From Bacteroidota bacterium (GTDB lineage Bacteria > Bacteroidota > Bacteroidia > NS11-12g > UBA955): DNA of 61,735 nt. The notes below the pieces were generated by a model, which had not been told where the DNA came from, searched no databases, and was given only the letters and a program-made list of their open reading frames with translations. How positions within the stretch are numbered: the first letter of the stretch is position 1; the number at the start of each line of letters is the position of its first letter. The stretch covers positions 1 to 61,735 of the forward strand of contig JAIXYV010000107.1 of assembly GCA_027490055.1 (NCBI GenBank). The letters are read 5' to 3'. This document shows positions 30,537 through 47,743 of this stretch, piece after piece. The translations under genes were made by a program, and so were the position numbers.

Positions 30537-32045
30537 TTATTCCATACTTTGATCGATGATATAAATCATCACAGCTACTGCAGCGGCACCTAGTTCCAGC
30601 TCGCGTTTATTGACGTTTTCAAAAACATCCGTTTCGGCGTGGTGCACATCAAAATACCTTTGAGAGTCGGGGTGTAATGCAGCAAAAGCTGTATTAGGAA
30701 ATACTTTTTTCAGTGGCGCGATATCGACACCGCCTCCCCCTTTTTCGAGAGTACCAATGCCGTATTGGTCGAGCAGTGGAAGGTATTTAGCGGCATGAAT
30801 TAGCAAGGCAGAATCTAAACCAAAACCACGCGGCGTAAAGCCACCACGGTCGCTTTCGAGAGCGGCAATATGTTGCTCATTTCTGGCAGCTGCTACTCTG
30901 GCATATTCGTTTCCACCTCTAACGCCGTTTTCTTCATTGATCCAGAAAACACAGCGCAGTGTATGTTTGGGTTGATAGCCGATGGCTTTTAACAAACGCA
31001 GTGCTTCGAATGCATGCATGCAACCAGCACCGTCATCATGGGCACCTTCACCTTGGTCCCAGCTATCAAAATGCCCCCCGAAAACAATCACTTTCTCGGG
31101 CGATTCTGTCCCATTGGTTTGTGCCATCACATTGGCGCTTTGACGGTCAGGCAACATCTTACAATTGAAATCGACAGTAACTCTCAAGCTTGTATCGTTT
31201 AAAGATAGATAATGTAAAACATCAGCCGCTGCAGTTGCCACAGCAATCATGGGAATTGGGGTGATATTTTTGCTGTATGATGTTACGCCAGTATGTGGAT
31301 GCAGATCGCAGCGGTTGGAGACACTTCTGACAAGCACAGCCAAAGCGCCGTATGGCGAGCACCAGTCGGAGCCCTGAACACGCTGATTGACGCAACCACC
31401 ATAGGCATGAAAGGTATTCACTTTAGCTTCTTCCATAGGACGGTTGAGGAGCACGATAGTATTTTTTAGTAAACCTAGTTGACCAAGACTATCTAGCTGT
31501 TTTTTGTTATTGACAGAGACAATTTTAGCGGATGCTTTACCGCCGACAGAACCACCGAGAGCTAGAGCAGGCATGGGTGTCCAGGTAGCGGCTTTAGAAG
31601 AAGATTCGAGGAAAGCTTCACATTCGAATTCGGGAGCAGGCGAGTTAGGGTAAGCCAATGCAACGATATTATGCAGTAAAGTGTTTTTGTCTGTTTTATT
31701 AGCGGTCATTTTTTTGAAGACATCGCTTTTGAAGGTCACGTTTCCTGCGGTACCTCTTTCCCAGCGTGGCACCATGACGCCTTGCGTATCTACTTTATCG
31801 AAGCCATAGGAAGATAGCATGTTATAGGCCCAGTTAACCCCATTTTCAGCGGCATCGCTGCCACTAAGACGCGGACCGATGGTTTTGCAGAGTTCACCAA
31901 GACGAGGGTAGGCATGACCTTTGGTGAGGGCTATTTCAAATAGTTGTTTAAATACCAGGCTATCTTTTTCGGAGTAGGATTTAGTATTTTGAGCAAGCAA
32001 TTGAGAGCTGCTTAACAAAAGGATGAGAGCAAACAGACGCGACAT
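30537..32045 (-). CDS. Secreted M28-family metallopeptidase
   Basis: The 502-aa protein has a signal peptide (LFALILLLSSSQLLAQ) and a PA-insert region before the catalytic M28 domain. Zinc ligands are visible in GGHFDSWDQGEGAHDDGAGC (His and Asp), WINEENGVRGGNEY (catalytic and metal Glu) and the later His in ALHPDSQRYFDVHHAETD. It is probably a periplasmic aminopeptidase or carboxypeptidase (PGCP-like). The ATG at 32045 places the signal peptide at the very N-terminus; an ATG three codons upstream is less likely. Confidence 0.9.
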   Translation of the reverse strand: MSRLFALILLLSSSQLLAQNTKSYSEKDSLVFKQLFEIALTKGHAYPRLGELCKTIGPRLSGSDAAENGVNWAYNMLSSYGFDKVDTQGVMVPRWERGTAGNVTFKSDVFKKMTANKTDKNTLLHNIVALAYPNSPAPEFECEAFLESSSKAATWTPMPALALGGSVGGKASAKIVSVNNKKQLDSLGQLGLLKNTIVLLNRPMEEAKVNTFHAYGGCVNQRVQGSDWCSPYGALAVLVRSVSNRCDLHPHTGVTSYSKNITPIPMIAVATAAADVLHYLSLNDTSLRVTVDFNCKMLPDRQSANVMAQTNGTESPEKVIVFGGHFDSWDQGEGAHDDGAGCMHAFEALRLLKAIGYQPKHTLRCVFWINEENGVRGGNEYARVAAARNEQHIAALESDRGGFTPRGFGLDSALLIHAAKYLPLLDQYGIGTLEKGGGGVDIAPLKKVFPNTAFAALHPDSQRYFDVHHAETDVFENVNKRELELGAAAVAVMIYIIDQSME

Positions 32046-32110
32046 GTGGTGCAAGTTATTTTAAAAAGCGGTGACCACAAAATTTCTGTTCAGGGAAGGT
32101 AAGAAAATTG

Positions 32111-32118
32111 TAATTTTG
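32111..32118 (+). promoter_or_regulatory. Candidate -7 box of tRNA-Arg
   Basis: TAATTTTG fits TAnnTTTG and ends 11 nt before the tRNA 5' end. Confidence 0.4.
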
Positions 32119-32129
32119 CAGGAGTAGTT

Positions 32130-32201
32130 GGCCCTGTAGTTTAATGGATAAAATTAGCGTTTCCTAAACGTTCGATATGGGTTCGATTCCCGTCGGGGCT
32201 A
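32130..32201 (+). tRNA. tRNA-Arg (anticodon CCU)
   Basis: The 72-nt cloverleaf has acceptor GGCCCTG/CGGGGCT, anticodon stem AGCGT/ACGTT with loop TTCCTAA (anticodon CCT) and T-arm with TTCGATT. No CCA is encoded. A decayed second copy follows 43 bp downstream. Confidence 0.9.
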
Positions 32202-32244
32202 CTATTAATTTTCAGATCTATTAAATAAAAATAAAAAGTAAAAT

Positions 32245-32345
32245 AGACTCGTAGTTCAATGCCAGCCCGAACGACGTTCAGTCGGGCGGGTATAGAATAG
32301 ATGTTTCCTAAACATTTGATATGAGTTCGATTCTCGTCGAGACCA
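32245..32345 (+). pseudogene. Second tRNA-Arg(CCU)-like sequence interrupted in the D-loop
   Basis: This 101-nt sequence aligns with the preceding tRNA: TAGTTCAATG, then TAGATGTTTCCTAAACATT (same anticodon loop) and ATGAGTTCGATTCTCGT (intact T-arm). About 29 nt are inserted in the D-loop as a GC-rich palindrome. The acceptor stem (AGACTCG/CGAGACC) has mismatches at pairs 1-72 and 3-70. It is probably a dead tandem duplicate, but the preserved anticodon and T arms leave function open. Confidence 0.7.
32262..32290. repeat. GC-rich REP-like palindrome inside the tRNA copy
   Basis: CCAGCCCGA...TCGGGCGGG forms a stem-loop (GCCCGA/TCGGGC, with an inner GAAC/GTTC). Its GC content contrasts with the surrounding AT-rich DNA. 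It resembles short dispersed intergenic palindromes, but I see no second copy in this window. Confidence 0.55.
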
Positions 32346-32356
32346 CAAAAATTAAA

Positions 32357-32380
32357 ACCGCCCCCAAGGCGGTCTTTTTG
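32357..32380 (+). terminator. Terminator of the tRNA-Arg unit
   Basis: ACCGCC/GGCGGT stem with a CCCAA loop followed by CTTTTTGTTTTTTT. Confidence 0.85.
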
Positions 32381-32721
32381 TTTTTTTAGTTCGTTAACGC
32401 TTTGACCTTCTCCTTAATTAACGAAAAAAATTTCTAATGCAGGTTGTATAGAATAAAGTGATGGGATCTTGAACAAAGGAGTTATAGTCTATTTGTCCTT
32501 TAAGTAACTTCAAGATTTAAATGAATAATTAATTTTTTTGATAAATATGTTGTTATGATTTATTTCTTATATGTCTAGTAATTAAGTTTTTAAAATTTAT
32601 AGTATGTTGGCGTAATGTTTAATTGTTTTTCTGATAATTCTATTGTTAATCAAATTTAATTTCAATATCATGTTGTTTTCACAATGCAAACCTTGCTTTG
32701 CATACAATAAATATAAGCAAC
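32381..32721. other. AT-rich intergenic region before the PhoX-like gene
   Basis: About 340 bp without a gene. The only structure I see is ATGCAAA-CCTTGC-TTTGCAT (32684-32703), a 7-bp inverted repeat ending 18 nt before the ATG, which could be an operator or a leader hairpin. Confidence 0.45.
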
Positions 32722-35700
32722 ATGAAGTTTAAAAATTTACTTATCACTGCAATGGTCTTTATGACATTCTTGATAACGCAAAACTTGTTTGGTCAAAAGA
32801 CGCTCAATGTTAGAATTGGCTCAGCAGATGACGACCAAGAAGAGTGGTTACCAGCTAAGTCTGGTCAAACACAATCGAAAACAGTTGGAAGTTTAGATCC
32901 AGGAAGTTCTGATTTAGAATTCGGAACTGAAGCTTCTGGAAACGACCCACAAATGGTAGGTTTAAGATTTACTAACATAAATATTCCTAAAGGTTCAATA
33001 ATTCTAAGCGCCTACATACAGTTTACTGTTGATGCGATTAACAAGAACAATGATCCTTGTAAGGTATTCATTAAAGGTGAAGCGAGCGATAGTTCATTAA
33101 TCTTTAATCCTGCTGCTTCTTACAATATTTCTTCTCGTTCAAGAACGAATGACTCAATAATTTGGAATGTTACAGGTTCAAGTTGGGCTACAGTTGGCGC
33201 AGCGACAGCAGATCAAAGAACGCCTAACCTTAAGCTTCTAATAGAACAAATGATGAATAGAGGTGGTTGGAAATCTGGAAACCCATTAACTTTTTTAATG
33301 TATGGTTCAGGTACCCGTGAAGTAGAATCATATGATGGTGACGCACCAAAAGCAGCAATGTTGGTCATCACTTATATCGAACCTAAAACCATCATGAGTA
33401 GAATTAATGCTGCTGATGATGATCAGGAAGAATGGTTGCCAGCTAAATCTGGTCAAACTCAATCTAAAACAGTTGGTAGTCTTGATCCGGGTAGTTCTGA
33501 TTTAGAATTCGGAGCAGAATCAGCAGGTAACGATCCTCAAATGGTTGGAATGCGTTTTACTAATATCAATATTCCTAAAGGTTCCTTAATCACCAATGCT
33601 TACATTCAATTTACAGTTGATGCTATTAATAAGAATAATGATCCTTGTAATATTATTATAAAAGGTGAGGCAAGCGATAGTGCAGTTATGTATAATCCTA
33701 CAAGTGCTTACAATATTACTTCAAGACCAAAAACAACGGATTCAGTAAGCTGGGCAGTTTCAGGAAGTTCTTGGAGCACAGTTGGTGCAGCAACAGCTGA
33801 TCAAAGAACACCCAATTTAAAATCTCTTGTTCAGACCATGATACAAAGAAATGGCTGGAAATCTGGAAATCCATTAGCTTTTTATATGTATGGAACTGGA
33901 ACCAGAGAAGTAGAATCATATGATGGAGATGCTCCGAAAGCGCCATTACTTGTCATTGAGTATATTCCATCAAGTACTATGTCAGTGCGAGTTAGTGCAG
34001 CAGATGACGATCAAGAAGAATGGACACCTGCTAAAGCTGGACAAACTCAAGCAAAAACTGTTGGAAGTTTAGATCCAGGAAGTTCAGATTTAGAATTAGG
34101 AACTGAATCAGCAGGCAATGACCCTCAAACTGTTGGTATTCGTTTTAACAATATAAATTTACCACAAGGTGCAATTATTCAGAATGCCTATATCCAGTTT
34201 ACAGTAGATGCAATTAATAAAAACACAAGTCCTTGCATACTCACTATCAAAGGTGAAGCAAGTGATACGCCTTCAATTTTTAAACCATCTGTATCGTATA
34301 ATATTACCAGCAGAGCCAAGACACAAGATTCAGTTATTTGGAATGTTTCTGGAACTACTTGGTCAACTGTAGGTGCAGCTACTGCAGATCAAAGAACAAG
34401 TAATTTAAAGCCAATAATAGAAAATCTGGTTAATAGATCGGGTTGGAAGAGTGGCAATTCAATGGCCTTCTTCATAAATGGAACAGGTACACGCGAAGTA
34501 GAATCTTATGATGGTGATGCACCTAAAGCACCGCTTTTAGTTATTGATTATTTAAGTGGTGATAATGGACCGGTGCAAAAGCCAAGAATCCCTTTGACTA
34601 CTTATCCGATAACCAAGAAGTCTAATTGGCTTTATTCTGATAGTGGTTTTAATTTAGGAACTACTTGGAAAAATAGTATTTATAAAAAAGACACTACCTG
34701 GAGTTTTGGAAAAGGTCCATTGGGCTTTGGTGAACTTGGATTTACTGGTACCGATATCAATCAAGGTAATACCAATAATAGATACATCACAAACTATTTC
34801 CGTAAGCCTATTCTGGTGTCTAATTTATCTAGTTTGACAGACACAATTGAATTACAATTAATGTGTGATGATGGCGCGGTTGTATATATTAACGGTACAG
34901 AAGTAGTCAGAAAAAATATTAATGCTGGCGCTGTTCTCTCTAATACAAAAGCAAATAAAAATGTTGACGCTCCGCAAGAGAGAGTTTATTGGTTGTATTA
35001 TTTGCCAAAAACCGTTTTAAAAGCGGATACTAATATTATTGCTGTTGAGGTTCACCAATATGACAGTTTAAGTTCAGATTTATTATTCGACCTTGCTTTA
35101 AATAACAGAAAATATAAGGCTAATGCAGCAGCATTAGGTTGCATAGGTGGTAACAGTCATATTTCTTGTTTTACCTCTGTAATGCCAATAGAACAATATG
35201 ATACTATTTGTATTCCTGCGACACACAAGTTTCAAGCCATCTTAAAAACAGGTGATGCTTATAGCAAGGGAGGCGCTGTTCCAAGTAATTTTGATTTTAC
35301 CGGATATAGCCCAATTAGCGGCAGTAGCAAAAAAGGTTATGTTGCGCTCAACCATGAAAAGAATCCAGGTGGTGTATCAATTTTAGATGTTCAATTTAAT
35401 TGTTCAAGTGGTACTTGGGTGGTTGATTCAGTTTTGCCAGTTAATTTTGGTGGCGATTTGGTTAAAACAGCACAAAATTGTTCAGGCGGACTTACTCCAT
35501 GGGGTACAACAGTTACCTGCGAAGAGGATGCCCCTATAGGTGATGTAAATGGAGACGGATATCAAGACATTGGTTGGAATATAGAAATCGATCCTAAGAC
35601 AAGAAAAGTGAAAGAATATGGCAATGGCAAACCAGAAAAATTATGGGCTATGGGTCGTATGAGTCACGAAAACATTGTATTTAAACAAGATAGTATTACT

Positions 35701-36930
35701 TCATATTATGGTGAAGATGAACCAGATGGTAACGTCTATAAATTTGTTGCATCTAAAAAGATGGATATATCAGCAGGTACTCTTTACGCGTTAAAGTTAA
35801 ATACTGTATTAGATAGTAAAGGCGATCCTACAGGTACAACTGGTACATGGGTTGTTATACCAAATACAACTAAATCTGATAGAAATAACACCAAAATACT
35901 AGCGAAAAATGCAAGCGCAACGCCATTTAATGGTGTTGAAGATGTAGAAATTAATCCACTTAATGGTCAGATTTATTTTACAGCAAAAGGAGTAGGACGT
36001 ACTTATAGCTTTAAAGACGATGGAACTACTGTTTCTGATTTTAAAACTTTTGTTGGTGGAGAAACCTATCCAATCAATTTTGGTTCTGGTATTATTGCTG
36101 AAGAATGGGCTGGTGGTAATGATAACCTTACTTTTGACGATAAAGGAAATTTATGGGTATTGCAAGACGGCGGCAGAAACTTTATTTGGTTGGTAAGACC
36201 AGATCACACTCAAGCATCACCAAAGATTGAGTTATTTATGACAACGCCTACAGGATCTGAACCAACTGGTATGACCTTTACGCCAGATTATAAATACATG
36301 TTCTTATCGATTCAAGAACCTTCAGCTGCTTCTACTACACAAAAGGATGTTAAAGGCGCATCTGTTCTGTTCAATAAAAGTCATTTAATTGTTGTTGCTC
36401 GTAAAGAAAACTTTAATCCAACTTCAATTACAAAGCCTACAATTGTTGGCCCTACAACAGCTAAACAACTATCTACGCAAACATACTCAGTGCAGAATAA
36501 CCCAGGTAGTGTTTATAATTGGACTGTTACAAACGGCTCTCAGGTTTCTGGTGGTGTAACCAATACAATAGGCGTTAAATGGGGTTCTACAGCTTCAGGA
36601 TCTCTTAATGTTATCGAAACTGCTAGCGCACAATGTGTAAGTAGTAATGAGCAAATTACTGTTTCTTTACAGAATACTTCAATTGATAACTTAAGTCAAA
36701 TTCCAGGTTTGAAAGTGTATCCGAATCCAACAGAAAACTACCTTTTCATTGATGCTATCGAAGGCTTAGACTACGAATTATTTGATTTGAATGGTAAGTC
36801 GATGTTTGCTGGCAAGAAGGAAGAGAATTCTGTCGCCTCAATTGATTTGAGTAATCTATCAGCAGGTATTTACACCTTAAGAGTAAGTAACGGTATAACC
36901 GTTGTAGCCTACCAGATTAGTCATAAATAA
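32722..36930 (+). CDS. T9SS-exported PhoX-like (DUF839) protein with three tandem repeat domains
   Basis: The 1402-aa protein has a signal peptide (ending LFGQ). Residues 28-615 are three near-identical 196-aa repeats (each with DDDQEEW, TVGSLDPGSSDLE, QRTPNL, REVESYDGDAPKA), probably beta-sandwich adhesion or stalk domains. About 620-800 is a further beta-sandwich (LMCDDGAVVYINGTEVV). About 820-1240 is a PhoX/DUF839 domain (YVALNHEKNPGG, TPWGTTVTCEED, GRMSHEN, EPDGNVYKF, DNLTFDDKGNLWVL). A PKD/SprB-like segment and a T9SS sorting domain (VYPNPTENYLFID) finish it. PhoX enzymes are Ca/Fe-dependent alkaline phosphatases, so a surface phosphatase is plausible. The ATG at 32722 best fits the signal peptide. 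Confidence 0.85.
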   Translation: MKFKNLLITAMVFMTFLITQNLFGQKTLNVRIGSADDDQEEWLPAKSGQTQSKTVGSLDPGSSDLEFGTEASGNDPQMVGLRFTNINIPKGSIILSAYIQFTVDAINKNNDPCKVFIKGEASDSSLIFNPAASYNISSRSRTNDSIIWNVTGSSWATVGAATADQRTPNLKLLIEQMMNRGGWKSGNPLTFLMYGSGTREVESYDGDAPKAAMLVITYIEPKTIMSRINAADDDQEEWLPAKSGQTQSKTVGSLDPGSSDLEFGAESAGNDPQMVGMRFTNINIPKGSLITNAYIQFTVDAINKNNDPCNIIIKGEASDSAVMYNPTSAYNITSRPKTTDSVSWAVSGSSWSTVGAATADQRTPNLKSLVQTMIQRNGWKSGNPLAFYMYGTGTREVESYDGDAPKAPLLVIEYIPSSTMSVRVSAADDDQEEWTPAKAGQTQAKTVGSLDPGSSDLELGTESAGNDPQTVGIRFNNINLPQGAIIQNAYIQFTVDAINKNTSPCILTIKGEASDTPSIFKPSVSYNITSRAKTQDSVIWNVSGTTWSTVGAATADQRTSNLKPIIENLVNRSGWKSGNSMAFFINGTGTREVESYDGDAPKAPLLVIDYLSGDNGPVQKPRIPLTTYPITKKSNWLYSDSGFNLGTTWKNSIYKKDTTWSFGKGPLGFGELGFTGTDINQGNTNNRYITNYFRKPILVSNLSSLTDTIELQLMCDDGAVVYINGTEVVRKNINAGAVLSNTKANKNVDAPQERVYWLYYLPKTVLKADTNIIAVEVHQYDSLSSDLLFDLALNNRKYKANAAALGCIGGNSHISCFTSVMPIEQYDTICIPATHKFQAILKTGDAYSKGGAVPSNFDFTGYSPISGSSKKGYVALNHEKNPGGVSILDVQFNCSSGTWVVDSVLPVNFGGDLVKTAQNCSGGLTPWGTTVTCEEDAPIGDVNGDGYQDIGWNIEIDPKTRKVKEYGNGKPEKLWAMGRMSHENIVFKQDSITSYYGEDEPDGNVYKFVASKKMDISAGTLYALKLNTVLDSKGDPTGTTGTWVVIPNTTKSDRNNTKILAKNASATPFNGVEDVEINPLNGQIYFTAKGVGRTYSFKDDGTTVSDFKTFVGGETYPINFGSGIIAEEWAGGNDNLTFDDKGNLWVLQDGGRNFIWLVRPDHTQASPKIELFMTTPTGSEPTGMTFTPDYKYMFLSIQEPSAASTTQKDVKGASVLFNKSHLIVVARKENFNPTSITKPTIVGPTTAKQLSTQTYSVQNNPGSVYNWTVTNGSQVSGGVTNTIGVKWGSTASGSLNVIETASAQCVSSNEQITVSLQNTSIDNLSQIPGLKVYPNPTENYLFIDAIEGLDYELFDLNGKSMFAGKKEENSVASIDLSNLSAGIYTLRVSNGITVVAYQISHK
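32803..34566 (+). repeat. Three in-frame tandem repeats of exactly 588 bp
   Basis: Landmark codons of the GATGAYGAYCAR motif recur at 32827, 33415 and 34003, a constant 588-nt (196-codon) period. The repeats are highly similar at protein level and clearly similar at DNA level, so the duplication looks fairly recent or gene-converted. Confidence 0.9.
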
Positions 36931-37270: not shown

Positions 37271-38044
37271 TTAAACGCCTGGTAGTTCTATTCCAAGCTG
37301 ATAAACCTTCAATGGTTCTGTCTCAAAACCGGGATTAAATGTCAATGAGGCTACATAATCGCCTTCTATACCAAACGAAGCCGTTTTCCAAGGTAATTCT
37401 GTATTCGTGATTTCAGACAATACGGTGTGTTTCCCGTCCAGTGAAGGCACATTTGGCAAACAATCGTCTATGCCTTTGCCTGTCGCCTTCAGCAAGGCCT
37501 CTTTGCGCGTCCAAAGCAGAAAAAAAGCTTCGCTCTGTTTATTGCTGTTTTTAATAAAACTGAGTTCTTCCTCCGAAAAGGTCACATCAAGCACCTGCTC
37601 ATAAGAGAAGGCAGTATCAATATATTCCACATCTACACCCAAAGGGGAACTGCTTATGGCGATCAATACCAGATCACGTGAATGTGAAATATTGAAAAAA
37701 AGCGGCTTCCCGGCCTGACGGATTAGCGGTTTATGATTTTCTTCGAAATAAAATTCAATCTTTGCCGCCGGTCGGTTCAGATAAGCACCAAGAAGGAATT
37801 TCAGCATACCTCTGGCTACGGTAAAACGGGTAGCATCTTTTTCCATAAGATATTTATCTGCCCTGAGTAATTCTTTCTCGTTCAAAAGCGTTTTCAAGAA
37901 CTGAATCTGATTTTCAAAATCTGATATGCGCAAGCAATGAATCGCAAGTGCATCATTATACCTGCAATAACGATGTTCTGTCAGATGTAAGTCGCTTATC
38001 CAGAAGCAATCAACGGTGTGAGTGTGATTTAGAAACTGTTTCAT
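37271..38044 (-). CDS. Sfp-type 4'-phosphopantetheinyl transferase
   Basis: This 257-aa enzyme transfers phosphopantetheine from CoA to the carrier-protein serines, making the adjacent NRPS and PKS active. The pseudo-dimeric Sfp/HetI fold is evident from NISHSRDLVL (118-127), the metal motif GVDVE (136-140) and WTRKEALLKATG (178-189). It is the last gene in the leftward cluster and presumably activates PCP Ser545 and ACP Ser1544 of the hybrid protein and PCP Ser1045 of the NRPS. A 53-codon ORF overlaps its start. Confidence 0.93.
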   Translation of the reverse strand: MKQFLNHTHTVDCFWISDLHLTEHRYCRYNDALAIHCLRISDFENQIQFLKTLLNEKELLRADKYLMEKDATRFTVARGMLKFLLGAYLNRPAAKIEFYFEENHKPLIRQAGKPLFFNISHSRDLVLIAISSSPLGVDVEYIDTAFSYEQVLDVTFSEEELSFIKNSNKQSEAFFLLWTRKEALLKATGKGIDDCLPNVPSLDGKHTVLSEITNTELPWKTASFGIEGDYVASLTFNPGFETEPLKVYQLGIELPGV

Positions 38045-38171
38045 TTTGCGTATTGTATTGTAAAATTTTATTATCGATTGCCATCTGCAGTGTTTTTACA
38101 AAACAGACGTTGTTTGGTAGCAGAAACATGCCTTCATGATAACCTTTACTTTTAAGCACTTTAAGTCCCAT
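38010..38171 (-). CDS. Small ORF (53 aa) between NRPS remnant and PPTase
   Basis: The frame begins with an ATG overlapping the stop of the adenylation-domain remnant (TAATG) and runs 53 codons (MGLKVLKSKGYHEGMFLLPN...). It overlaps the PPTase start by 35 nt. I recognise no family. The tight stop-start coupling argues for translation, but it could equally be a further piece of a decayed NRPS module. Confidence 0.4.
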   Translation of the reverse strand: MGLKVLKSKGYHEGMFLLPNNVCFVKTLQMAIDNKILQYNTQNETVSKSHSHR

Positions 38172-38434
38172 TAATCCCAGTTTCTTTCAAGCTCAAATAT
38201 TTCAGGTCCTGCAAGAAATAAAGCATTGTCTTCAGAGGCTATAACTTGTAGAAGTCCCACTTCGCTTAACATCCACTTTAATTTCTCGGTATTAAAGGCA
38301 GTTTCAAGCCAAATAAAGGCTGTGCCTGATTTACATACATCAAGCACAGAAACCAGCATTAGGGCAGAAGGAATACAAAATATCCCTATTAAGGCCTCAT
38401 CTGCTGATCCAGACAGTTTATTTGTTATCCTGAT
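38171..38434 (-). pseudogene. Remnant of an NRPS adenylation domain (A2 region)
   Basis: The open frame on the minus strand has ALIGIFCIPSALMLVSVLDV, then CKSGTAFIWLE and LKWMLSEVGLLQVIASE. These align with the adenylation-domain stretch around core motif A2 (VAIYCERS..MIVAILGVLKAGGAYVPLD..RLxYMLEDSG). There is no A1 or anything beyond A2, and no convincing start codon before the internal ATG at 38359. The frame overlaps the 3' end of the large NRPS gene. I infer the scar of a deleted adenylation module; a repurposed small protein is the alternative. Confidence 0.6.
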
Positions 38435-41400
38435 CTAGAACACTTTGAAGCAATGAGGCAAATCCGACATGGTTCGGTGGCAAAATCATATCATCATGAT
38501 TTCCAGTCACTTCATGTATAAAAATACCTTTTAAACCATACTTTTTCCAAGTCTTTATATCCGTATCTCTGCGATATTCCATGCGTTCTTTTGCGATAAA
38601 TAAATTCAAAGGACCATTGTATGGTTTAAACTCATAGTTATAAATAGCACTTTCATGCATTGCCATTCCTTTGAGTATGTTATCTGTAAGGACTGGATGC
38701 TGCAATTCTAAATCGTTCTGTATTCCAAACCTTTGCCTAAGGGTTACCCATCTGAGTTTCCACTTCAATTTGTAATGAATAGTCGCTTTAATTGGGTATT
38801 TGAAAAAAATCTTGATTTTAAATGCAGTTTTGGGCAAAAAATCAGAAAACAGCGTTTTCAATTTTAGTTTAACATCATTTTTTCCAATGTATTCAATTCG
38901 ATCATTTTTGATGACAAAATCAAAATCAAAAAATATGGTTGATTTAACCTGTTTTCCGCTCTCCTGGAGTTGTCTCGCCATTTCGTAGGCTATCAGACTA
39001 CCTGACGAAAGTCCTGCCAGCTGGTAGGGTCCATTTGGATTGTGTTCAATGATTTCTGAAATATAAAATGCGGCTGTTTCTTTAATGCAATTCAAAGGAA
39101 TATCGTTGCTGCCTTCGCCCAGAGCTTGTATACCAAAGGCGGGTTGATCTGGATCTAATTCTCCAGCAATATGCGTAAATACCATAGCCCCAAGTCCGGC
39201 ACCATGAATGAGGTAGACAGGGGGTTTAGTGCCCGACGGTTTTAGTGAGACCAATGACTTCCATTTATTTGATTGAATGCCAGAATCAATGTAATTCGCA
39301 AAGTCCCGTATGTTTGGATACTCAAACAATGCTGCGATTTTGATTTTAGCTTTAAACTCATCTCCACACTTTATCACAAATTGTATAGCCAGCAAAGAAT
39401 GCCCACCGGATTCAAAAAAATTATCGGTGATACCGGCTTTTTTTACGCCTAAGACGTTTTCCCAAATGCGTTTGACTCGTTTGACAGTATTGGATAGAAC
39501 CATTTCAGTCTCATCCTTGTTTAAGTCTTCCTTAACTTCCAGATTCGAAATTCTTTTAGTCAAGTCGGACAATAAATTTCTGTCCGTTTTATTGTTTAGA
39601 TTCAATGGAATCTGATTGATTCCAATAAAAACCGAAGGCAGCATGTAATCTGGCAAATAGGAGGAAATAACAGTCTTCCACGTTTGTTCCTGGGATTTGT
39701 CTATTGCAAAAGCACTTATTGAATCTATTGATGCGAGATGTTCCCCCAGAATAGCAGATGAATTATTTGGTTGCACAAAGGCAATCATCCTTACATCATC
39801 TGCAGTCACCTTATGAGCAATCAACACAGCATCAGCAAGCTCAGGCAAATTGCGAAGAGTATATTCTATTTCACCTGTTTCAATCCGGTAACCCCTGACT
39901 TTAAGTTGTTCATCATTTCGCCCTAAACAATAGATTTCACCATTGTTGCTCATTTTACCCAAATCGCCTGTTTTGTAAAGGATTTCACCTTGTAAGTCAT
40001 GATTAACGATGAATTTCTCAGCATTGAGCTCCGGTCTGTTTAAATACGATTTCGCAAGACCGGCTCCTCCAATACAAATTTCACCAACTTGGCCGGGAGC
40101 CATTACCTCATTATTGTTACCTAGTATATAAACCTGATTGTTTTTAATGGGTCGTCCAATGCTAATTTCTGTGTCTACATCCTTTATTTGCTTCATGGTT
40201 GCCCATATAGTCGCTTCAGTGGGCCCATACATATTCCAAAGTGTTTTACATCTGCCTAGCAGCATTCTTGCCAATTCAATACTCAGTGCCTCGCCGCCAG
40301 ATAATAGGATAATTTCGCTTGATCCTTTCCAATCTGCTGCTATCAACAGTTTAAAGGTTGACGGCGTTGCTTGTATGAAATTGACTTTGCTATTTTTTAT
40401 CCTGTTTTGTAAGGCATATCTATCTTTACTTTCTTGAGGATTTAGCATAACTAGAGTACCACCGCATATCAAAGGCAATAACAACTCCAGCAATGAAATG
40501 TCAAACGAAATAGTTGCCAGCCCAAGAAACCTGTCTGATGCTTTAAACTTCAATTCGTCGCGCATGGCATATAAAAGATTAGTAAGACTACCATGCTCGA
40601 TCAGCACACCTTTGGGAAGACCAGTTGACCCTGAGGTATACATTACATAGGCCAAGTCGTTAGCGGTTTGTTTAAGGTCCGGATTGTGAGATGAAAACTG
40701 ATTTATATCCCTTTTAAAATCTTCAAATAGGATTTGCTTACAATTGCTATGGAAATTATCTTTGAGATGAGATTGTGTAATCAGGAAATTACTCATCGAA
40801 TCTGCCAGTACATATTCTATTCTCTTTGAAGGAAATCCAATATCGATTGGCAAAAAAGCCCCGCCTGCTTTTAGTACACCCAAAATGGCAATTAGTTTAT
40901 CCGAAGACCTGTCCATTGCAATTGCTACAATGTCATTCTTTTTTAGTCCGCATTGCAAAATATAATCCGCCAGCGCATTAGATTGTTTATTAAGTTCCTC
41001 GTATGAAATTGCGTGTTCGTTAAATTCAACGGCGGTCTTATGCTTGAATTGCACTACAGTTTTTTCAATGCATTGATTAACAGGAAAAAAATCGGTCAAG
41101 CAAGCGAACTTTTGGGGATTTACTGGATCAGACTTTTTCAAACCTTTAATAAGATCCAATACATCACTTAAGTGTATGTCAGGTGATTCGACAATTCTAT
41201 CCAGCAAATCACAAAAAGAATTAAACCAATTCTGTACAGTACTTTCTTTGAATAGATATGTGTTATAAAACCACTCCATTTTTAAATCATTTCCGCTGCC
41301 CCGGATATTCATAAACAATTCGAAATTTCCGTACGACTTTGGATTTGCAGTCATTTCAACGTTTAGCCCCGAAAATTCCACTCCTTTGTCTAGGTCTATA

Positions 41401-42530
41401 TCGAGATTGTATACTACTGGTGCGAGTGGAATCCTTGAAGGATCTCTGTTCAGCCTTAACTTTTTGAGCAAACTTCCAAAGGTGAATTGTTGGTGTTCAA
41501 ATACATTCAGAGCATACTCTTTTCGGTCTGACAGGTAGTCTCTAAAGCAGCAGTTCAATTTCGGTTTGCTACGAAATGGCAAAAAATTAACACAATGACC
41601 AATTAAATCGGCTTTACCGTTGAATGCTTGGTAGGCAGTTGGTACACCAACAACTATATCGTCTTGCCGACACAAGTGCTTTAAAAAATATTCAAAGACC
41701 GACAGGAGCGAGATGGCAAAGCTAACTTCACTTTCGGTACCAATTTTTCGTAATTGTTGAATGGTTTCATTTTTCAGCCTTCCCTCCACTGTTGCGCAAC
41801 TATAGGTTCTTGGAACTCGTCTTGCAACATCTACCGGCAAATTTAACTGCGGCACTTTTTCCAGATATTGATTAAGCCAGAAAGATTCATTGCGCTCATA
41901 GTCCGTGCTTTGTTCAAATTCTCTGAGCTCCAATGCATAGCTGGAGTAAGTGGCAGGCAGGGGGAGTGCCTCTTTGTTTGGATGAACTTCCAAAGAATAC
42001 AATTTCCCCAGATCTGATGCAATAGAGCCCAAAGACCATCCATCTGCTGCTATGTGGTGCACGGTAATCACCAAATGGTTCAACACATCCGATAGTTTGA
42101 TTATAGTTGCTCTGATTAAAGGCCCCAATTCCAGATCAAAACGCAAATGGGTATCTGTCTTAATAAAATCCGTTAAAAATTTTGTTTGCGATTCTGGTGT
42201 CAGGGTAGAAATATCTTTTTTACCGCATTCAAATTCTAATGTCTTCAGGATGCATATCTGATTACTGTATATACTGTAAGTAGCGCGAAGGGCTTCGTGC
42301 CGGTTAACCAAACTCTGTATGGCTCTTTCTAGCTTATCTTTATGCAGCTCGCCTTTAAAAATGAGGGTAAAAGACAAATTAAAAGACTTGTTTGCATTGT
42401 CGTCTCCAAGAGCACATGCAGTCAAAATTTCAGACTGCGGTTCAGGGCACTGAAAGCACATTTCAATTTCAGGTCCTGAAAACGGGTTATAATCTATGGA
42501 TTCAACTGCAAATTCAGATTTTTCTTTCAT
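38418..42530 (-). CDS. NRPS termination module, C-A-PCP-TE, predicted Gly-activating
   Basis: This 1370-aa synthetase has a condensation domain (about 18-450; HHIAADG at 158-164), an adenylation domain (about 490-985; YTSGSTGLPKG 631-641; MYGPTEATIW; YKTGDLG; NNKTDR with Lys981), a carrier domain (GGHSLL, Ser1045) and a thioesterase (about 1104-1370; GLSSG with nucleophile Ser1175, His1345 near the end). The ten-residue specificity code read by alignment to GrsA is D-I-L-Q-L-G-M-I-W-K, one residue off the glycine code. It should add Gly to the chain from the hybrid protein and release it. Its ATG overlaps the upstream TGA (ATGA), so the two are translationally coupled. Confidence 0.95.
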   Translation of the reverse strand: MKEKSEFAVESIDYNPFSGPEIEMCFQCPEPQSEILTACALGDDNANKSFNLSFTLIFKGELHKDKLERAIQSLVNRHEALRATYSIYSNQICILKTLEFECGKKDISTLTPESQTKFLTDFIKTDTHLRFDLELGPLIRATIIKLSDVLNHLVITVHHIAADGWSLGSIASDLGKLYSLEVHPNKEALPLPATYSSYALELREFEQSTDYERNESFWLNQYLEKVPQLNLPVDVARRVPRTYSCATVEGRLKNETIQQLRKIGTESEVSFAISLLSVFEYFLKHLCRQDDIVVGVPTAYQAFNGKADLIGHCVNFLPFRSKPKLNCCFRDYLSDRKEYALNVFEHQQFTFGSLLKKLRLNRDPSRIPLAPVVYNLDIDLDKGVEFSGLNVEMTANPKSYGNFELFMNIRGSGNDLKMEWFYNTYLFKESTVQNWFNSFCDLLDRIVESPDIHLSDVLDLIKGLKKSDPVNPQKFACLTDFFPVNQCIEKTVVQFKHKTAVEFNEHAISYEELNKQSNALADYILQCGLKKNDIVAIAMDRSSDKLIAILGVLKAGGAFLPIDIGFPSKRIEYVLADSMSNFLITQSHLKDNFHSNCKQILFEDFKRDINQFSSHNPDLKQTANDLAYVMYTSGSTGLPKGVLIEHGSLTNLLYAMRDELKFKASDRFLGLATISFDISLLELLLPLICGGTLVMLNPQESKDRYALQNRIKNSKVNFIQATPSTFKLLIAADWKGSSEIILLSGGEALSIELARMLLGRCKTLWNMYGPTEATIWATMKQIKDVDTEISIGRPIKNNQVYILGNNNEVMAPGQVGEICIGGAGLAKSYLNRPELNAEKFIVNHDLQGEILYKTGDLGKMSNNGEIYCLGRNDEQLKVRGYRIETGEIEYTLRNLPELADAVLIAHKVTADDVRMIAFVQPNNSSAILGEHLASIDSISAFAIDKSQEQTWKTVISSYLPDYMLPSVFIGINQIPLNLNNKTDRNLLSDLTKRISNLEVKEDLNKDETEMVLSNTVKRVKRIWENVLGVKKAGITDNFFESGGHSLLAIQFVIKCGDEFKAKIKIAALFEYPNIRDFANYIDSGIQSNKWKSLVSLKPSGTKPPVYLIHGAGLGAMVFTHIAGELDPDQPAFGIQALGEGSNDIPLNCIKETAAFYISEIIEHNPNGPYQLAGLSSGSLIAYEMARQLQESGKQVKSTIFFDFDFVIKNDRIEYIGKNDVKLKLKTLFSDFLPKTAFKIKIFFKYPIKATIHYKLKWKLRWVTLRQRFGIQNDLELQHPVLTDNILKGMAMHESAIYNYEFKPYNGPLNLFIAKERMEYRRDTDIKTWKKYGLKGIFIHEVTGNHDDMILPPNHVGFASLLQSVLDQDNK

Positions 42531-45500
42531 GATTTAAGAATAAGTTTAAGGAATTTACCAGGTCGTGAATCATCGCTGATGTACCAAGCTGGTATACCAT
42601 TCTCATCTCTCCCTAATTTCGCTCCAGCAATAGGTGGTTCAGAGGCATTAAAAACATTGCTTTGTTTATGTTTTAATGCTTTCGTTGTCAGATTTGTACT
42701 TCTCTCATCCGGCACAAAATCAACGCTCTCTTTCATTGCCAATAATTCAGCATTGAACACACTTTCGAGAGAATGATTGAAAGCATCTACCGCTTCCTGA
42801 ATAGCATTCCGGTTTGAATGTTTTAAATTTTCCTTTAGCGCTTCGCTCATCAATTTAATAGCAGAAAGATTTTGCTTGATTTTTGCCAAAGGCTGAACGC
42901 TATTTTGACTGTTATCTGCATCCAAACTTTGTAAATTCGGCTTATTGTCAATTATGCCAATGTTTTGCAAATCTTCAGTATCAGTTGCCATATTGGAATC
43001 TAAATAACTGGAAAGCTTATCAAATGTATTAACATCAAGATTCAATTGTCTGAAGGTTACTTGTATGCCAAATTTCTTGCGAATAGTTACCGAAAGTTGG
43101 GTTAAAAGAAGTGAATCAAGTCCAAGTTCAATAAAACTCAAATTGTTATTAGATCCAGACAAATCAGATCCTGAGGCCTCGCTGCACAAAGATTTCAGTT
43201 TTGTGCAAATGACATCAATCCTTGTTTTGCCTTCGTCAACAGATTTGGATATTGAAGAACCATCTTCTTCTACTATTTGTTCATCAGGCAAACGAACGTT
43301 ACTGACCATAGATGACTTTATCCAATATGGCTTTCTGTCAAATGCATAAACGGGTAAATTAAGTTTCACAGATCCCATATCAGGGAACAATTTTTCCCAT
43401 TTGAACGGCACACCATACAACCACATCGTTCCAAAGGTTTCTAAAACCAACTGAGGGTCTTCTTCTGTCTCATTGCTATAATCCATACCAGCTATTGCCT
43501 GTATCGGGTTTCCCGCAGCATGCTGTTTGAGAAGATTTGTACAAACATTGCCGGGTCCGATTTCTTGATACACAAAACGCCCTTGATACAAAATTGTATC
43601 CATAGCTTCAGAAAAACGAACGGTGGCGAGTAAATGTTGGCTCCAGTATTTCGGATCAGTGGCTTGCTTTTTTGATAATACCTGGCCACTCACTGTCGAT
43701 ATAATGTCAATTTGAGGTGCCTGCAAATTCATGCCATCAAGTACCATTTCCAATTGCTTTAATGCGGGTTCCATCAAGTGCGAATGGAATGCATGACTCG
43801 TGTTCAACAACTTATTTGGTACTTCAGCTGAATCTAATTTTCTGGCAAAATCAGCTACATGATCATCTTCACCGGCCACTACGATAGAATGTTTGCTGTT
43901 GATGGCAGCTATACTGAGACCTTTAGGCAACAATTCCAGTAATTTCTCATGTGTTAATCTGACCGAAAGCATGCTTCCCCTGGGTAGTTCACTGACCAAT
44001 ATGCCTCTATTTGCAATGAAAGTTAATGCATCGTCCAAACTGAATACCCCGGCTAAATGTGCAGCCGCAATTTCACCAATACTGTGCCCGCAAAGTAAGT
44101 CCGGCATTAACCCGTAATGCATCCACAATTTGGCTAGAGCGAGTTCAGTTACAAAAATTGCCGGCTGTGTAAATCTTGTATTTCTTAATGATTCCTCTGC
44201 ATTTAAATTATTTTGAGCCGGGAAAAGTAATGTCCTCAAATCAATTCCCAGTAATGGTCTCAACTTTTCCGAACACTCATCTATGCAATTGCGGTAAACT
44301 GCTTCTCGTTTATAGAGATCAATACCCATGTTGACAAACTGAGACCCCTGACCTGGAAACAGCCATACTAATCCATCTGGAACTGCCTTTAGTTCAAAAG
44401 GCGTTTCCAATGCCGCATTTTCAGAAAGTTTACTTACCAGTTCTTTTTTATTACGCGCAATGGCAAATCGTCTAAAGGTAAAATCTTCCCGATGATGTCT
44501 GAGTGTATTGGCTATATCCGGCAATGTTGCCTTTTCATTGCTCACATAATGACTTAGTTTCTTGGCATACATATTCAGACTGAAAGCTGATTTTGCTGAC
44601 CAGGCAACTAACTGCACTTTGTCTGTTTGCTGGCCACCTGCTGGTTCGCTTTCCGGGTTAGTAAATTCTTCTAGAAGGATGTGTACATTCGTTCCGCCAA
44701 CGCCGAAAGAACTGACACCGGCAATGCGTTTTTTGCTTGGTTCAATTTTCCATTCTGAAGTTTTAGTATTCACATAAAACGGAGTGAAACTGAAATTTAT
44801 ATTGGGATTGGGGGTTTTGAAACCAAGTGATTTAGGAATAATTCTATGTTTAAGAGACAAAGCGGTCTTGATTACCCCAGCCACACCGGCTGCAGTGGTA
44901 AGATGCCCAATGTTGCTTTTTACAGAACCAATTGCACAGTATTGCTTTTCTGAGGTTTGCCCAAAGGCAAGATTAAGTCCTTCAATTTCTATAGGATCAC
45001 CTAGGGGTGTTGCAGTTCCATGGGCTTCAATATAAGTTATATCTGTAGGATCTGCATCAGCATCGTTTATAGCCATCCGGATAGCAGCTGCCTGCCCATC
45101 GCTACTCGGCGCAGTAAAACTACCCTTTCCACCGCCATCATTACTGACACCTACTCCACTTATGACCGCAAAGATGTGGTCTCCATCGGTTATTGCCTGA
45201 TCAAGTGGTTTTAAAAGAACTGCTGCCGCGCCATCACTGAAAACCGTCCCACTCGAATCTTCATCAAATGCCCTGGTTCGTCCGTCGTGGCTGAACATGG
45301 CTCCTTCTTGATAAATCTGACCACTGTTGACTGGCGAAGTTATACTGGCGCCACCAGCTATAGCAACATCACACTGACCGCTTCTAATTGCATTGACTGC
45401 TTCTGCTATAGCCAATAACGAGGTAGAACAAGCTGAATATACACTGACTGCAGGCCCTTTCAGGTTTAATTGATAGGCCGTTCGACTGGCGATGTAATCC

Positions 45501-47743
45501 TTTTCATTAAGAGTCATAACCTGAAAAGCCCCGATTTTATCAATTTCTTTCTTGTTTCCCTGTACGTTATTCAGATAATAGGTGTTGTTGCCGGTGCCCG
45601 CATACACTCCTATCCGTCCTGAATATTTCGAAGGTATACAGTTACCGTGTTCGAGTGCCTCCCAGGCCAGTTCCAGAAAAATCCTTTGCTGGGGATCCAT
45701 CAAACGCGCCATACTTGGTGTTATCCCAAAAAAAGCAGCATCAAACATCTCGGCATTGTTTATGACACCACGAACGGGTACATAATTCGGATCGTCTTTT
45801 ATCTCATCAGGAATGGATGGGTCAAGTTCATCGCGACTGAATGTCGTAATTGTTTCTTTTTCGTTTAAGAGGTTATACCAGAACTCGTCGACATTATCAG
45901 CCCCTGGAAACTTTCCCGACATACCAATTATGGCTATTTTGCTACCCGCCCGATTTGGCTTTTCGCTCTTTGCAAGTTCCAATTGCTGATTTCCTTGTTT
46001 AATGTATTCCGCAAGGGCAGAGATAGTAGGTGACTGATAAAAACGTGTAATCGATATTCTGTATTGGAATTTGTGATTAAATTCGGCCAAACATTTCTGC
46101 ACCAACAAAGAATTACCGCCAATCTGAAAGAAATTATCATCTGTGCCAAGCTCATCAAGCTGAGTAAGTGCAGTCCAGACAGAGGCCATATTCCTCTCAA
46201 TTTCAGTTTTGGGCTTTCTGTATAGGGTTGTTAAATCTGAACGTAATTTTTGTGGTTTGGGTAACATGCTTTGATCAACCTTGCCATTAGGTGTCACAGG
46301 TAATTCATTCAGGTTGACAAAATAATCCGGCAACATAAAATCTGGCAGTTGCTTTTCAAGCATTTGACGCCATTGTGCTGCATCAGGTATATGTATTTCC
46401 GATACAATATATGCTACAATATTTTTCTGCCCAACACTGTCTTCGCGCACCATAACATGAACTTGTTGTATGCCATCCATCTGCATAATAGCATGTGCGA
46501 TATCACCCAACTCGATACGATTTCCTCTAATTTTAACCTGATCATCCACTCGACCAATAAAATTGAAATCTCCATCGGCATCTATGCTCACCAAATCTCC
46601 ACTGGCGTATAGTTGAGAATGTCCCTGATCGAATGGATTCGGAATCCGTTTTCGGCTAGTCAAATCCGGGTTATTTAAATACCCTTCAAACAATTGCACT
46701 CCCCCAATGTACAGTTGCCCTTTGTTTGTCCTTTTAAGTTCATCGTCCAGAACGTACAACTGAACCCCGGGCATTGGCTTTCCGATACTTATACTTGTCG
46801 AAGTATATTTATAATCTGCCAAAACACTAAATTTAAACACCATACAGCCTACGGTTGCCTCGGTAGGGCCGTATTCATTCACAATTTGTGCATTAATTCC
46901 GGCATCTTTCAGGAAGGCAAAATGCCAGGGATGAAGGGATTCGCCGCCTAGAACGAATGTTTTTGTAGAATGCCATGCTCTTTTGTCAGAAGCATTATGT
47001 AAAAACATAAATTGAACTGGCGTCAATTTAATGAAATTGTATGGTGCGTATTTAACCAGATTAGGGTCATCAAAGGCTTCCAAACGATTAAAAGAATTAA
47101 TCACAAGTAATTTTCCACTGCACAAAGGAACAAAAACAGAAGTCAACGAAGCATCAAATGCCAGTGAAAGATGTAAAAAACTTCCGGCGATAGCGCCATC
47201 ATCGCTACCATATAAATTTATTGCTGATTTTACATAATTGATAATGGCATTATGTGAAATCATTACACCCTTTGGTTTCCCGGTAGACCCAGATGTAAAT
47301 ATTACATATGCGGTTTCATTCTGGTTAAATCCTGTTATTTCAGGCGCAGTGTAGTTGTAATCGTTTGCTATAACACTGAGTCCTGTCTGCTGAAAATAAT
47401 CTGTTTCCGAGGCGTTGGATAGAATATAACGAAAATGACCTTCCTCCACCATATCCCTCAATCTGCTTTGCGGATGCTTCGGGTCTAGCGGCACAAAAGC
47501 TTTTCCAGCTTTTAATATGGCCAGAACACTCACAATCATTTCTACAGATGGCGTACAACTTACTGCAATATAGGGCTCAGAAAATGCCTGTCTTAGTATT
47601 TCTCGACTAAGCATATCAGCCCTTTCCTCCATATTTTTAAAAGAAAGCGCTTCCTCCCTGAATACCAACGCAATTGTTTCGGCATTAAGCCTAGCAGCGT
47701 CAGAGATCAGATTTTCCAGTCGTGCAGGCTTTTGAATATTCAT
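42527..47743 (-). CDS. Hybrid NRPS-PKS, A-PCP-KS-AT-ACP
   Basis: This 1738-aa protein starts directly with an adenylation domain (about 15-500; FTSGSTGKPKG 149-159; EYGPTEATVG; YASGDL; NGKVD Lys488). It continues with a PCP (GGNSLL, Ser545), a ketosynthase (about 602-1030; ACSTS Cys772, His908, His947), an acyltransferase (about 1125-1420; GHSIGE Ser1221; HAFH 1317-1320, the malonyl-type motif) and an ACP (GLDSL, Ser1544). There is no KR, DH or ER, so the beta-keto group should remain. The adenylation code reads D-A-T-K-V-G-E-V-G-K, closest to asparagine codes. The C-terminal ~150 residues include a helical segment and PPIAGAKLGRDENGIPAWY, a linker-like motif seen after carrier domains. Lacking a C domain, it is a loading/extension starter. 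Confidence 0.95.
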   Translation of the reverse strand: MNIQKPARLENLISDAARLNAETIALVFREEALSFKNMEERADMLSREILRQAFSEPYIAVSCTPSVEMIVSVLAILKAGKAFVPLDPKHPQSRLRDMVEEGHFRYILSNASETDYFQQTGLSVIANDYNYTAPEITGFNQNETAYVIFTSGSTGKPKGVMISHNAIINYVKSAINLYGSDDGAIAGSFLHLSLAFDASLTSVFVPLCSGKLLVINSFNRLEAFDDPNLVKYAPYNFIKLTPVQFMFLHNASDKRAWHSTKTFVLGGESLHPWHFAFLKDAGINAQIVNEYGPTEATVGCMVFKFSVLADYKYTSTSISIGKPMPGVQLYVLDDELKRTNKGQLYIGGVQLFEGYLNNPDLTSRKRIPNPFDQGHSQLYASGDLVSIDADGDFNFIGRVDDQVKIRGNRIELGDIAHAIMQMDGIQQVHVMVREDSVGQKNIVAYIVSEIHIPDAAQWRQMLEKQLPDFMLPDYFVNLNELPVTPNGKVDQSMLPKPQKLRSDLTTLYRKPKTEIERNMASVWTALTQLDELGTDDNFFQIGGNSLLVQKCLAEFNHKFQYRISITRFYQSPTISALAEYIKQGNQQLELAKSEKPNRAGSKIAIIGMSGKFPGADNVDEFWYNLLNEKETITTFSRDELDPSIPDEIKDDPNYVPVRGVINNAEMFDAAFFGITPSMARLMDPQQRIFLELAWEALEHGNCIPSKYSGRIGVYAGTGNNTYYLNNVQGNKKEIDKIGAFQVMTLNEKDYIASRTAYQLNLKGPAVSVYSACSTSLLAIAEAVNAIRSGQCDVAIAGGASITSPVNSGQIYQEGAMFSHDGRTRAFDEDSSGTVFSDGAAAVLLKPLDQAITDGDHIFAVISGVGVSNDGGGKGSFTAPSSDGQAAAIRMAINDADADPTDITYIEAHGTATPLGDPIEIEGLNLAFGQTSEKQYCAIGSVKSNIGHLTTAAGVAGVIKTALSLKHRIIPKSLGFKTPNPNINFSFTPFYVNTKTSEWKIEPSKKRIAGVSSFGVGGTNVHILLEEFTNPESEPAGGQQTDKVQLVAWSAKSAFSLNMYAKKLSHYVSNEKATLPDIANTLRHHREDFTFRRFAIARNKKELVSKLSENAALETPFELKAVPDGLVWLFPGQGSQFVNMGIDLYKREAVYRNCIDECSEKLRPLLGIDLRTLLFPAQNNLNAEESLRNTRFTQPAIFVTELALAKLWMHYGLMPDLLCGHSIGEIAAAHLAGVFSLDDALTFIANRGILVSELPRGSMLSVRLTHEKLLELLPKGLSIAAINSKHSIVVAGEDDHVADFARKLDSAEVPNKLLNTSHAFHSHLMEPALKQLEMVLDGMNLQAPQIDIISTVSGQVLSKKQATDPKYWSQHLLATVRFSEAMDTILYQGRFVYQEIGPGNVCTNLLKQHAAGNPIQAIAGMDYSNETEEDPQLVLETFGTMWLYGVPFKWEKLFPDMGSVKLNLPVYAFDRKPYWIKSSMVSNVRLPDEQIVEEDGSSISKSVDEGKTRIDVICTKLKSLCSEASGSDLSGSNNNLSFIELGLDSLLLTQLSVTIRKKFGIQVTFRQLNLDVNTFDKLSSYLDSNMATDTEDLQNIGIIDNKPNLQSLDADNSQNSVQPLAKIKQNLSAIKLMSEALKENLKHSNRNAIQEAVDAFNHSLESVFNAELLAMKESVDFVPDERSTNLTTKALKHKQSNVFNASEPPIAGAKLGRDENGIPAWYISDDSRPGKFLKLILKS

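Follow-up and report, generated by a model that had tools for sequence, protein, structure and literature searches.

A hairpin-interrupted tRNA-Arg(CCU) copy in a Bacteroidota genome, probably a spare from a family of tRNA-linked GIY-YIG elements

We analyzed a window of 61,735 nucleotides, contig C70 of a 3.02-Mb draft genome (G000), that carries two tandem copies of tRNA-Arg(CCU), the second of which is interrupted in its D-loop by a GC-rich palindrome. We think it probable that this second copy is a disarmed spare from a family of small selfish elements found in Bacteroidota tRNA genes, either left behind at this locus or carried into it. The unit in related loci consists of an intact tRNA, a small GIY-YIG gene in the same orientation, and either another copy or a fragment of the tRNA, and this additional copy is often interrupted by a GC-rich hairpin in one of its loops. 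Judged by sequence comparison, the palindrome and the backbone of copy 2 in the window match such elements almost to the letter. The features of the pair are as follows.

32130-32202, + strand: copy 1, an intact tRNA-Arg(CCU) and the presumed working gene (ARAGORN, tRNA-Arg(cct); Rfam RF00005, 57.4 bits)
32203-32244, + strand: A+T-rich spacer of 42 bases between copy 1 and copy 2, at the place taken by the GIY-YIG gene in related loci
32245-32261, + strand: copy 2, tRNA positions 1-17, the mutated 5' strand of the acceptor and the 5' side of the D arm
32262-32291, + strand: D-loop insert of copy 2, the GC-rich palindrome CCAGCCCGAACGACGTTCAGTCGGGCGGGT (from folding and from comparison with the palindrome of locus L059)
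32292-32346, + strand: copy 2, tRNA positions 19-73, the anticodon arm, T arm, and 3' strand of the acceptor
32357-32380, + strand: terminator-like hairpin and T run downstream of copy 2 (read from the sequence)

Copy 1 was the sole match to an intact tRNA-Arg(CCU) pattern in this genome, which is 96.8% complete. Copy 2 differs from it at 4 of 7 positions in tRNA positions 1-7, at 1 of 10 in positions 8-17, and at 12 of 55 in positions 19-73. By eye, the pairs of the D, anticodon, and T stems are present in copy 2, and its acceptor stem retains five of seven pairs, the others being A-C and A-A mismatches. Copy 2 was not called by ARAGORN, and Rfam matched only its 3' part with 27.2 bits, below the gathering score of 29 bits; on these results and the state of the acceptor stem, we rejected copy 2 as a functional tRNA-Arg(CCU). 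Rfam matches to Phe_leader, mir-544, and P9 near copy 2 were under their gathering scores and were disregarded. An earlier note on this DNA had described a tandem tRNA-Arg(CCU) duplicate with intact anticodon and T arms, two acceptor mismatches, and a GC-rich palindrome in the D-loop. All of this was confirmed, the duplicate at 32245-32346 and the palindrome as 29-30 nt at 32262-32291; the net insertion relative to the intact D-loop is 29 nt when the next G is counted as a T. A sequence like that at 32357-32380 also follows other tRNA genes of the same genome (contigs C101 and C43).

The insert folded alone gave -16.8 kcal/mol (z, -3.71), a value equalled by 1 of 200 shuffles. Its core had no second match in its own genome at up to three mismatches. 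With a looser palindrome pattern, two weaker relatives were found, on contigs C46 and C119, which brings the places in this genome to three with the tRNA one included; these two are all that was found of the genomic copies for which the earlier note had proposed a search. Because there is no further exact palindrome and only two weaker relatives exist, we rejected a high-copy REP family in this genome. Among the 16 other genomes of the genus that were searched, the loose pattern was found in G009 only, where by our reading it lies outside tRNAs. The D-loop-insert pattern had no match in viral_contigs, and carriage of such a tRNA by phages was rejected on this result. Group I introns in tRNA genes are long and self-splicing, and they typically lie in the anticodon loop. 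A group I intron was rejected here, the insert being only 30 nt long and in the D-loop, with no Rfam intron match in 31000-33500.

When a pattern for the interrupted tRNA-Arg(CCU) was run against a collection of 84,980 species, 22 stretches were returned, and 17 of them carry a related palindrome in the D-loop at the position seen in the window. The remaining five comprise one stretch in which half a palindrome precedes a full tRNA (L064) and four with tandem tRNA fragments lacking a palindrome (L047, L051, L054, and L057). All named hosts are Bacteroidota, including Chitinophagaceae, Cyclobacteriaceae, Sphingobacteriaceae, and Flammeovirgaceae; L065 and L046, both with an Arg-group nuclease, are from Algoriphagus and Taibaiella, respectively. 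The window palindrome differs at 1 of 29 bases from the palindrome at the same tRNA site in L059, and the 3' part of copy 2 differs at 1 of 55 positions from the intact tRNA of L050. PrsA of the L059 and L050 genomes is 61% and 68% identical, respectively, to that of the window genome, as compared with 94% and 91% in the genus-mates G013 and G016 and 69-70% in three genomes of the same family. By this protein, the L059 genome is distant from the window genome, and the L050 genome may be no more distant than a neighboring family. At the syntenic site, beside the same peptidase gene, the genus-mates G010 and G013 have one intact tRNA-Arg; in G011 the contig stops just past the tRNA-Arg, so a second copy is still possible there.

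A shorter D-loop-insert pattern matched 5 of 395 genomes in an evenly drawn sample of the class, the window genome included; of these five, G140 had a match that lacks a palindrome. Members of the palindrome family are scattered through several genomes (for example, G442, G445, and G028), also away from tRNAs, and by our reading about half of the dispersed palindromes returned sit after TG, as does the D-loop insert. In G440, G441, and G452, the genome-wide palindrome pattern matched the tRNA copy alone. Other arrangements were also seen. In L107 (G004, of the same genus as the window genome), a second tRNA-Arg(CCT) at about 1405-1530 bears a different GC-rich hairpin at another position of the D arm, and no nuclease was found in the 3 kb examined. 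In L110 and L111 (G016 and G021), a 5' part of tRNA-Arg(CCU) lies upstream of the intact gene and is followed by an inverted-repeat region, in which a stretch of approximately CTGAGCAGTGAAGTGAGCAGTGATTGTA is common to both genera. In L134/L204 (G447, contig C35), the same type of palindrome lies in another tRNA-like D arm (GTAGTACAATG ... GATAGTATAAG).

GIY-YIG genes were located by HMM, with 14 sequences from relatives as its basis, in place of an over-strict regular expression that gave one match. A single-domain GIY-YIG ORF was found near the palindrome in 15 of the 17 loci, and in 16 of 17 when more of the L056 contig was taken in (L150); by coordinates, the nuclease and the hairpin copy are no more than about 125 bp apart. 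The five pattern stretches lacking a full related palindrome had no GIY-YIG ORF by the HMM. The lone exception among the 17, L048, has an intact tRNA-Arg, a terminator-like hairpin, and a palindrome copy with no nuclease, which is the layout of the window itself. Among 29 loci gathered from relatives with a tRNA-Arg query (L003-L031), one (L020) had a GIY-YIG gene; a further case outside that set, L102 (G028), has palindromes as well. Two layouts recur. In seven loci (L046, L049, L058, L059, L061, L062, and L065), an intact tRNA is followed by the nuclease and then by the hairpin copy, and the stop codon of the nuclease is the TAG within the GTAG of the tRNA. In three (L044, L052, and L102), a hairpin-bearing 5' part is followed by the nuclease and then by the intact tRNA. 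L050 has three tandem hairpin-bearing 5' halves, then an intact tRNA, then the nuclease. Nuclease ORFs of the tRNA-Arg group have roughly 80-115 codons. Many spare tRNA copies in related loci are truncated, and sister copies outside the window are mostly identical or nearly so in their matching pieces outside the hairpin, an identity that is biased upward because the pieces come from BLAST. A tandem array of near-identical tRNA-Arg(CCT) fragments with palindromes was seen after a GIY-YIG gene in L219.

The linkage was also examined starting from the nuclease, in two sets: GIY-YIG places among the matches listed in relatives, with long ORFs left out, and a class set gathered by similarity to one Arg-group protein at an E value of 1e-16. 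The class set is blind to the palindrome, yet it is no random draw of GIY-YIG genes because it was found through protein similarity. Before counting, each locus was reduced to its best GIY-YIG gene, and ORFs of more than 240 residues, exact duplicate ORFs, and matches under 25 bits were dropped; the sets partly overlap the palindrome set (L212 overlaps L053, L215 overlaps L062, and L216 is the region of L119). Among the matches listed in relatives, 80 GIY-YIG loci were scored, of which 34 had an intact tRNA within 300 bp and 46 had none. The nearest tRNA was on the strand of the nuclease in all 34; in 22 of them that tRNA was present again as another copy or a piece, and in 12 no such copy or piece was detected. 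In the class sample, an intact tRNA lay within 300 bp in 22 of 27 loci, and all 22 had this tRNA on the strand of the nuclease together with another copy or a piece of it. Some of the second copies so counted are pieces of 12-20 nt. A strict GC hairpin was present at the break in 14 of 22 loci among the matches listed in relatives (1.2 expected from control windows of the same locus; absent in 8) and in 13 of 22 in the class sample (1.3 expected; absent in 9). These counts are low because the rule, which demands perfect arms, misses imperfect D-loop palindromes; the figure in the palindrome-selected set, whose members were chosen for having a palindrome, is 6 of 15. The tRNAs nearest to the nucleases are those for Arg, Met, Asn, Asp, Val, Ala, Leu, Ser, Glu, Gly, Phe, Cys, and Lys, and alignments of 13 loci together with gap printouts place the hairpins within, or in place of, D-loops, anticodon arms, and T-loops.

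A tree was built by a quick method from 97 GIY-YIG proteins and 103 columns, with rows under 40 bits dropped and SH-aLRT as the only support measure. The 18 rows labelled Arg_cct, which were largely gathered through the palindrome pattern and include one label set by hand (L053), required 2 changes against a shuffle mean of 16.8, and none of 500 shuffles was as low. Seventeen of them form one group (support, 90), with L150 apart, and eight of nine tRNA-Met rows are grouped (support, 83). All labels together required 29 changes against 53.7 in shuffles (0 of 200 as low); several other isotypes are spread over the tree (Arg_acg, for example, with 4 changes in 5 rows), and 40 of the 97 rows had no tRNA inside the limit used. 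L102, from the window's own family, groups with the Arg nucleases of distant families and apart from L092 and L172 of its own genome. Nuclease clades tend to follow the adjoining tRNA. Pfam PF01541 was matched by all 10 proteins tested. For one Arg-group protein, the closest solved structures by sequence were those of UPF0213 proteins, 1ywl and 1zg2. The window genome itself has a small GIY-YIG gene just after a tRNA-Met (L100; G000:C105:48907-49256), which falls in the tRNA-Met group of the tree and for which no second tRNA copy was detected.

By the HMM, there is no GIY-YIG ORF in the 61.7 kb of the window. A nuclease relic at 32203-32250 was rejected as well: when the region was aligned locally to the 3' ends of eight GIY-YIG genes, 438 of 500 shuffles and 27 of 100 intergenic windows nearby did as well in the summed score, and 207 of 500 shuffles did as well in the best score. 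The reference for this test omitted the L059 copy that has no preceding nuclease. The window locus is at best an orphan of the tRNA/GIY-YIG element family, because it has neither such an ORF nor a relic and there are 12 differences in 55 positions between its two copies, in contrast to the mostly identical matching pieces elsewhere. Farther downstream of the tRNA pair, the window holds an ORF of 1410 residues (32698-36930, + strand) with a triplicated segment (...ADDDQEEW...) and long ORFs at 37271-47743 (- strand) with motifs that we take to resemble those of phosphopantetheinyl transferase and NRPS/PKS genes.

How might a disarmed spare arise? We suppose that the nuclease would cut the tRNA gene and that recombinational repair would then duplicate the tRNA around the nuclease gene. 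One tRNA copy would be kept intact, by which the host would survive, and the other would have a hairpin that either abolishes its cut site or belongs to the element itself. Immunity conferred by the hairpin would be insufficient alone, because the intact copy retains the presumed cut site. In the window, the nuclease gene may be gone by loss, or the spare copy may have moved alone; L048 has the same nuclease-less form. A bolder version is possible, and we put it forward tentatively: a large, isotype-specialized family of selfish GIY-YIG elements in Bacteroidota chromosomes would break an essential tRNA gene, restore it by duplication in one and the same step, and disarm the displaced copy with its own mobile hairpin. 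Hairpin, nuclease, and tRNA would then be one minimal cassette, and the scattered hairpins would be its offspring, REP-like but run by a GIY-YIG nuclease instead of a Y1 transposase.

The earlier note had suggested insertion of a REP-like element into a redundant tRNA, and part of this stands, in that copy 2 is redundant and its palindrome is one of a family that recurs and is dispersed in some genomes. Recurrence at the same site in 17 of 22 stretches, the lack of a GTAG foot in the dispersed relatives returned, and the GIY-YIG neighbor do not fit it. More generally, an independent REP-like palindrome, otherwise mobile, could have struck a spare tRNA, with the GIY-YIG gene merely sharing its liking for tRNA loops and redundant copies. 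The dispersal of the family in several genomes, the TG that precedes about half of the returned copies as it does the insert, and the lack of a nuclease in both the window and L048 are in favor of such a palindrome. We nevertheless regard it as rather unlikely. A random landing is very unlikely because in three genomes (G440, G441, and G452) the tRNA copy is the only match, and an independent palindrome would also have to be reconciled with the nuclease near 16 of 17 palindrome loci and with the same layout across different tRNA isotypes.

It seems improbable to us that the hairpin-bearing tRNA is a retained functional RNA, such as a decoy, a regulator, or a structural partner of the nuclease, rather than a disarmed leftover. 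The near identity of sister copies outside the hairpin and the stem pairs seen in copy 2 speak for function, but that identity may stem from a recent origin or gene conversion, the acceptor strand is broken in the window and diverged in several other copies, and truncation of the spare is frequent. Nothing in the present analysis supports a new functional small RNA, which the earlier note had offered as its other option. Least of all do we expect a plain decaying tandem duplicate, or the attachment-site scar of an integrase island, with a chance hairpin, or an artefact of assembly. The acceptor mismatches of copy 2 are in keeping with decay or a scar, as are partial tRNA-Arg copies found next to intact ones in other members of the genus and outside it; chance and artefact are contradicted because 17 loci of separate assemblies share the site and a related palindrome. 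The earlier note had set a simple decaying pseudogene as the outcome if no other copies of the palindrome existed, and this does not apply because the palindrome recurs.

GIY-YIG matches were found in all 58 relatives, UvrC-like long ORFs included, and the genomes searched commonly carry small GIY-YIG genes. If these are homing elements of tRNA genes, they would gain a function, the story of the phage nuclease SegB would be extended to bacterial chromosomes, tRNA genes that are duplicated and broken by hairpins, which annotation may overlook, would be explained, and a nuclease of roughly 80 residues with a testable target for each tRNA would be in hand. Homing nucleases of the GIY-YIG type linked to tRNAs are already known in phages; what seems to be novel is the variant in bacterial chromosomes, in which a tRNA copy is duplicated and disarmed by a hairpin. 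Among the matches listed, mostly from open-licence literature, we recognized no report joining GIY-YIG nucleases, duplicated tRNAs, and hairpins in bacteria.

Several known systems invite comparison. Rickettsia palindromic elements are palindromes tolerated inside genes, which is a likeness to the present hairpins; the difference is that they are not known to be linked with a nuclease or with duplication of a tRNA. UPF0213 proteins are single-domain GIY-YIG proteins and include the nearest solved structures for the Arg-group protein noted above; a difference is that none of the 10 tRNA-linked proteins tested matched an NCBIfam model. The resemblance to REP/RAYT systems (REPtrons), as given in the part of their account available to us (PMC3733652), lies in short imperfect GC-rich palindromes beside a nuclease or transposase gene, dispersed in some genomes. 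Unlike in that account, the partner gene here is a GIY-YIG gene, and unlike GTAG REPs, the dispersed non-tRNA copies returned have, by our reading, no GTAG 5' foot or CTAC 3' foot (PMC3733652). The GTAG that lies 7 nt upstream of the insert belongs to the tRNA itself. The high copy number of GTAG REPs is also not seen in the window genome, with its three places for the loose pattern.

The closest parallel is with SegB, described in the portions of two accounts available to us as a free-standing GIY-YIG homing endonuclease at tRNA genes of phages T4 and T6 (PMC13096335, PMC2988022). According to the available portion of one of these, SegB cleaves DNA within tRNA genes, brings about amplification of the tRNA and the nuclease in tandem, and co-localizes in phages with tRNAs of many isotypes (PMC13096335). 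Its reported motif there is RAWTSGAAC, which by our own reading is the complement of a T-loop sequence. The present elements differ from the phage SegB so described in that they lie in bacterial chromosomes and have a single domain, and in that one tRNA is duplicated around the nuclease, with the spare often broken by a hairpin; hairpins in tRNA copies are unmentioned in the portions of the SegB accounts at hand (PMC13096335, PMC2988022). The GIY-YIG domain expected of a SegB-type unit is absent in the window and present near 16 of 17 related palindrome loci. A SegB-type element would also cut alleles that lack it and be copied into the break; what bears on this here is the isotype linkage of the nuclease clades in the tree. 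As with SegB, a GIY-YIG nuclease adjoins tRNA genes of many isotypes, and tandem nuclease-tRNA units occur, in L052, L077, and L155. The position beside a tRNA was found in 34 of 80 loci among the matches listed in relatives and in 22 of 27 loci of the class sample, and in all 56 of these the tRNA and the nuclease are on the same strand.
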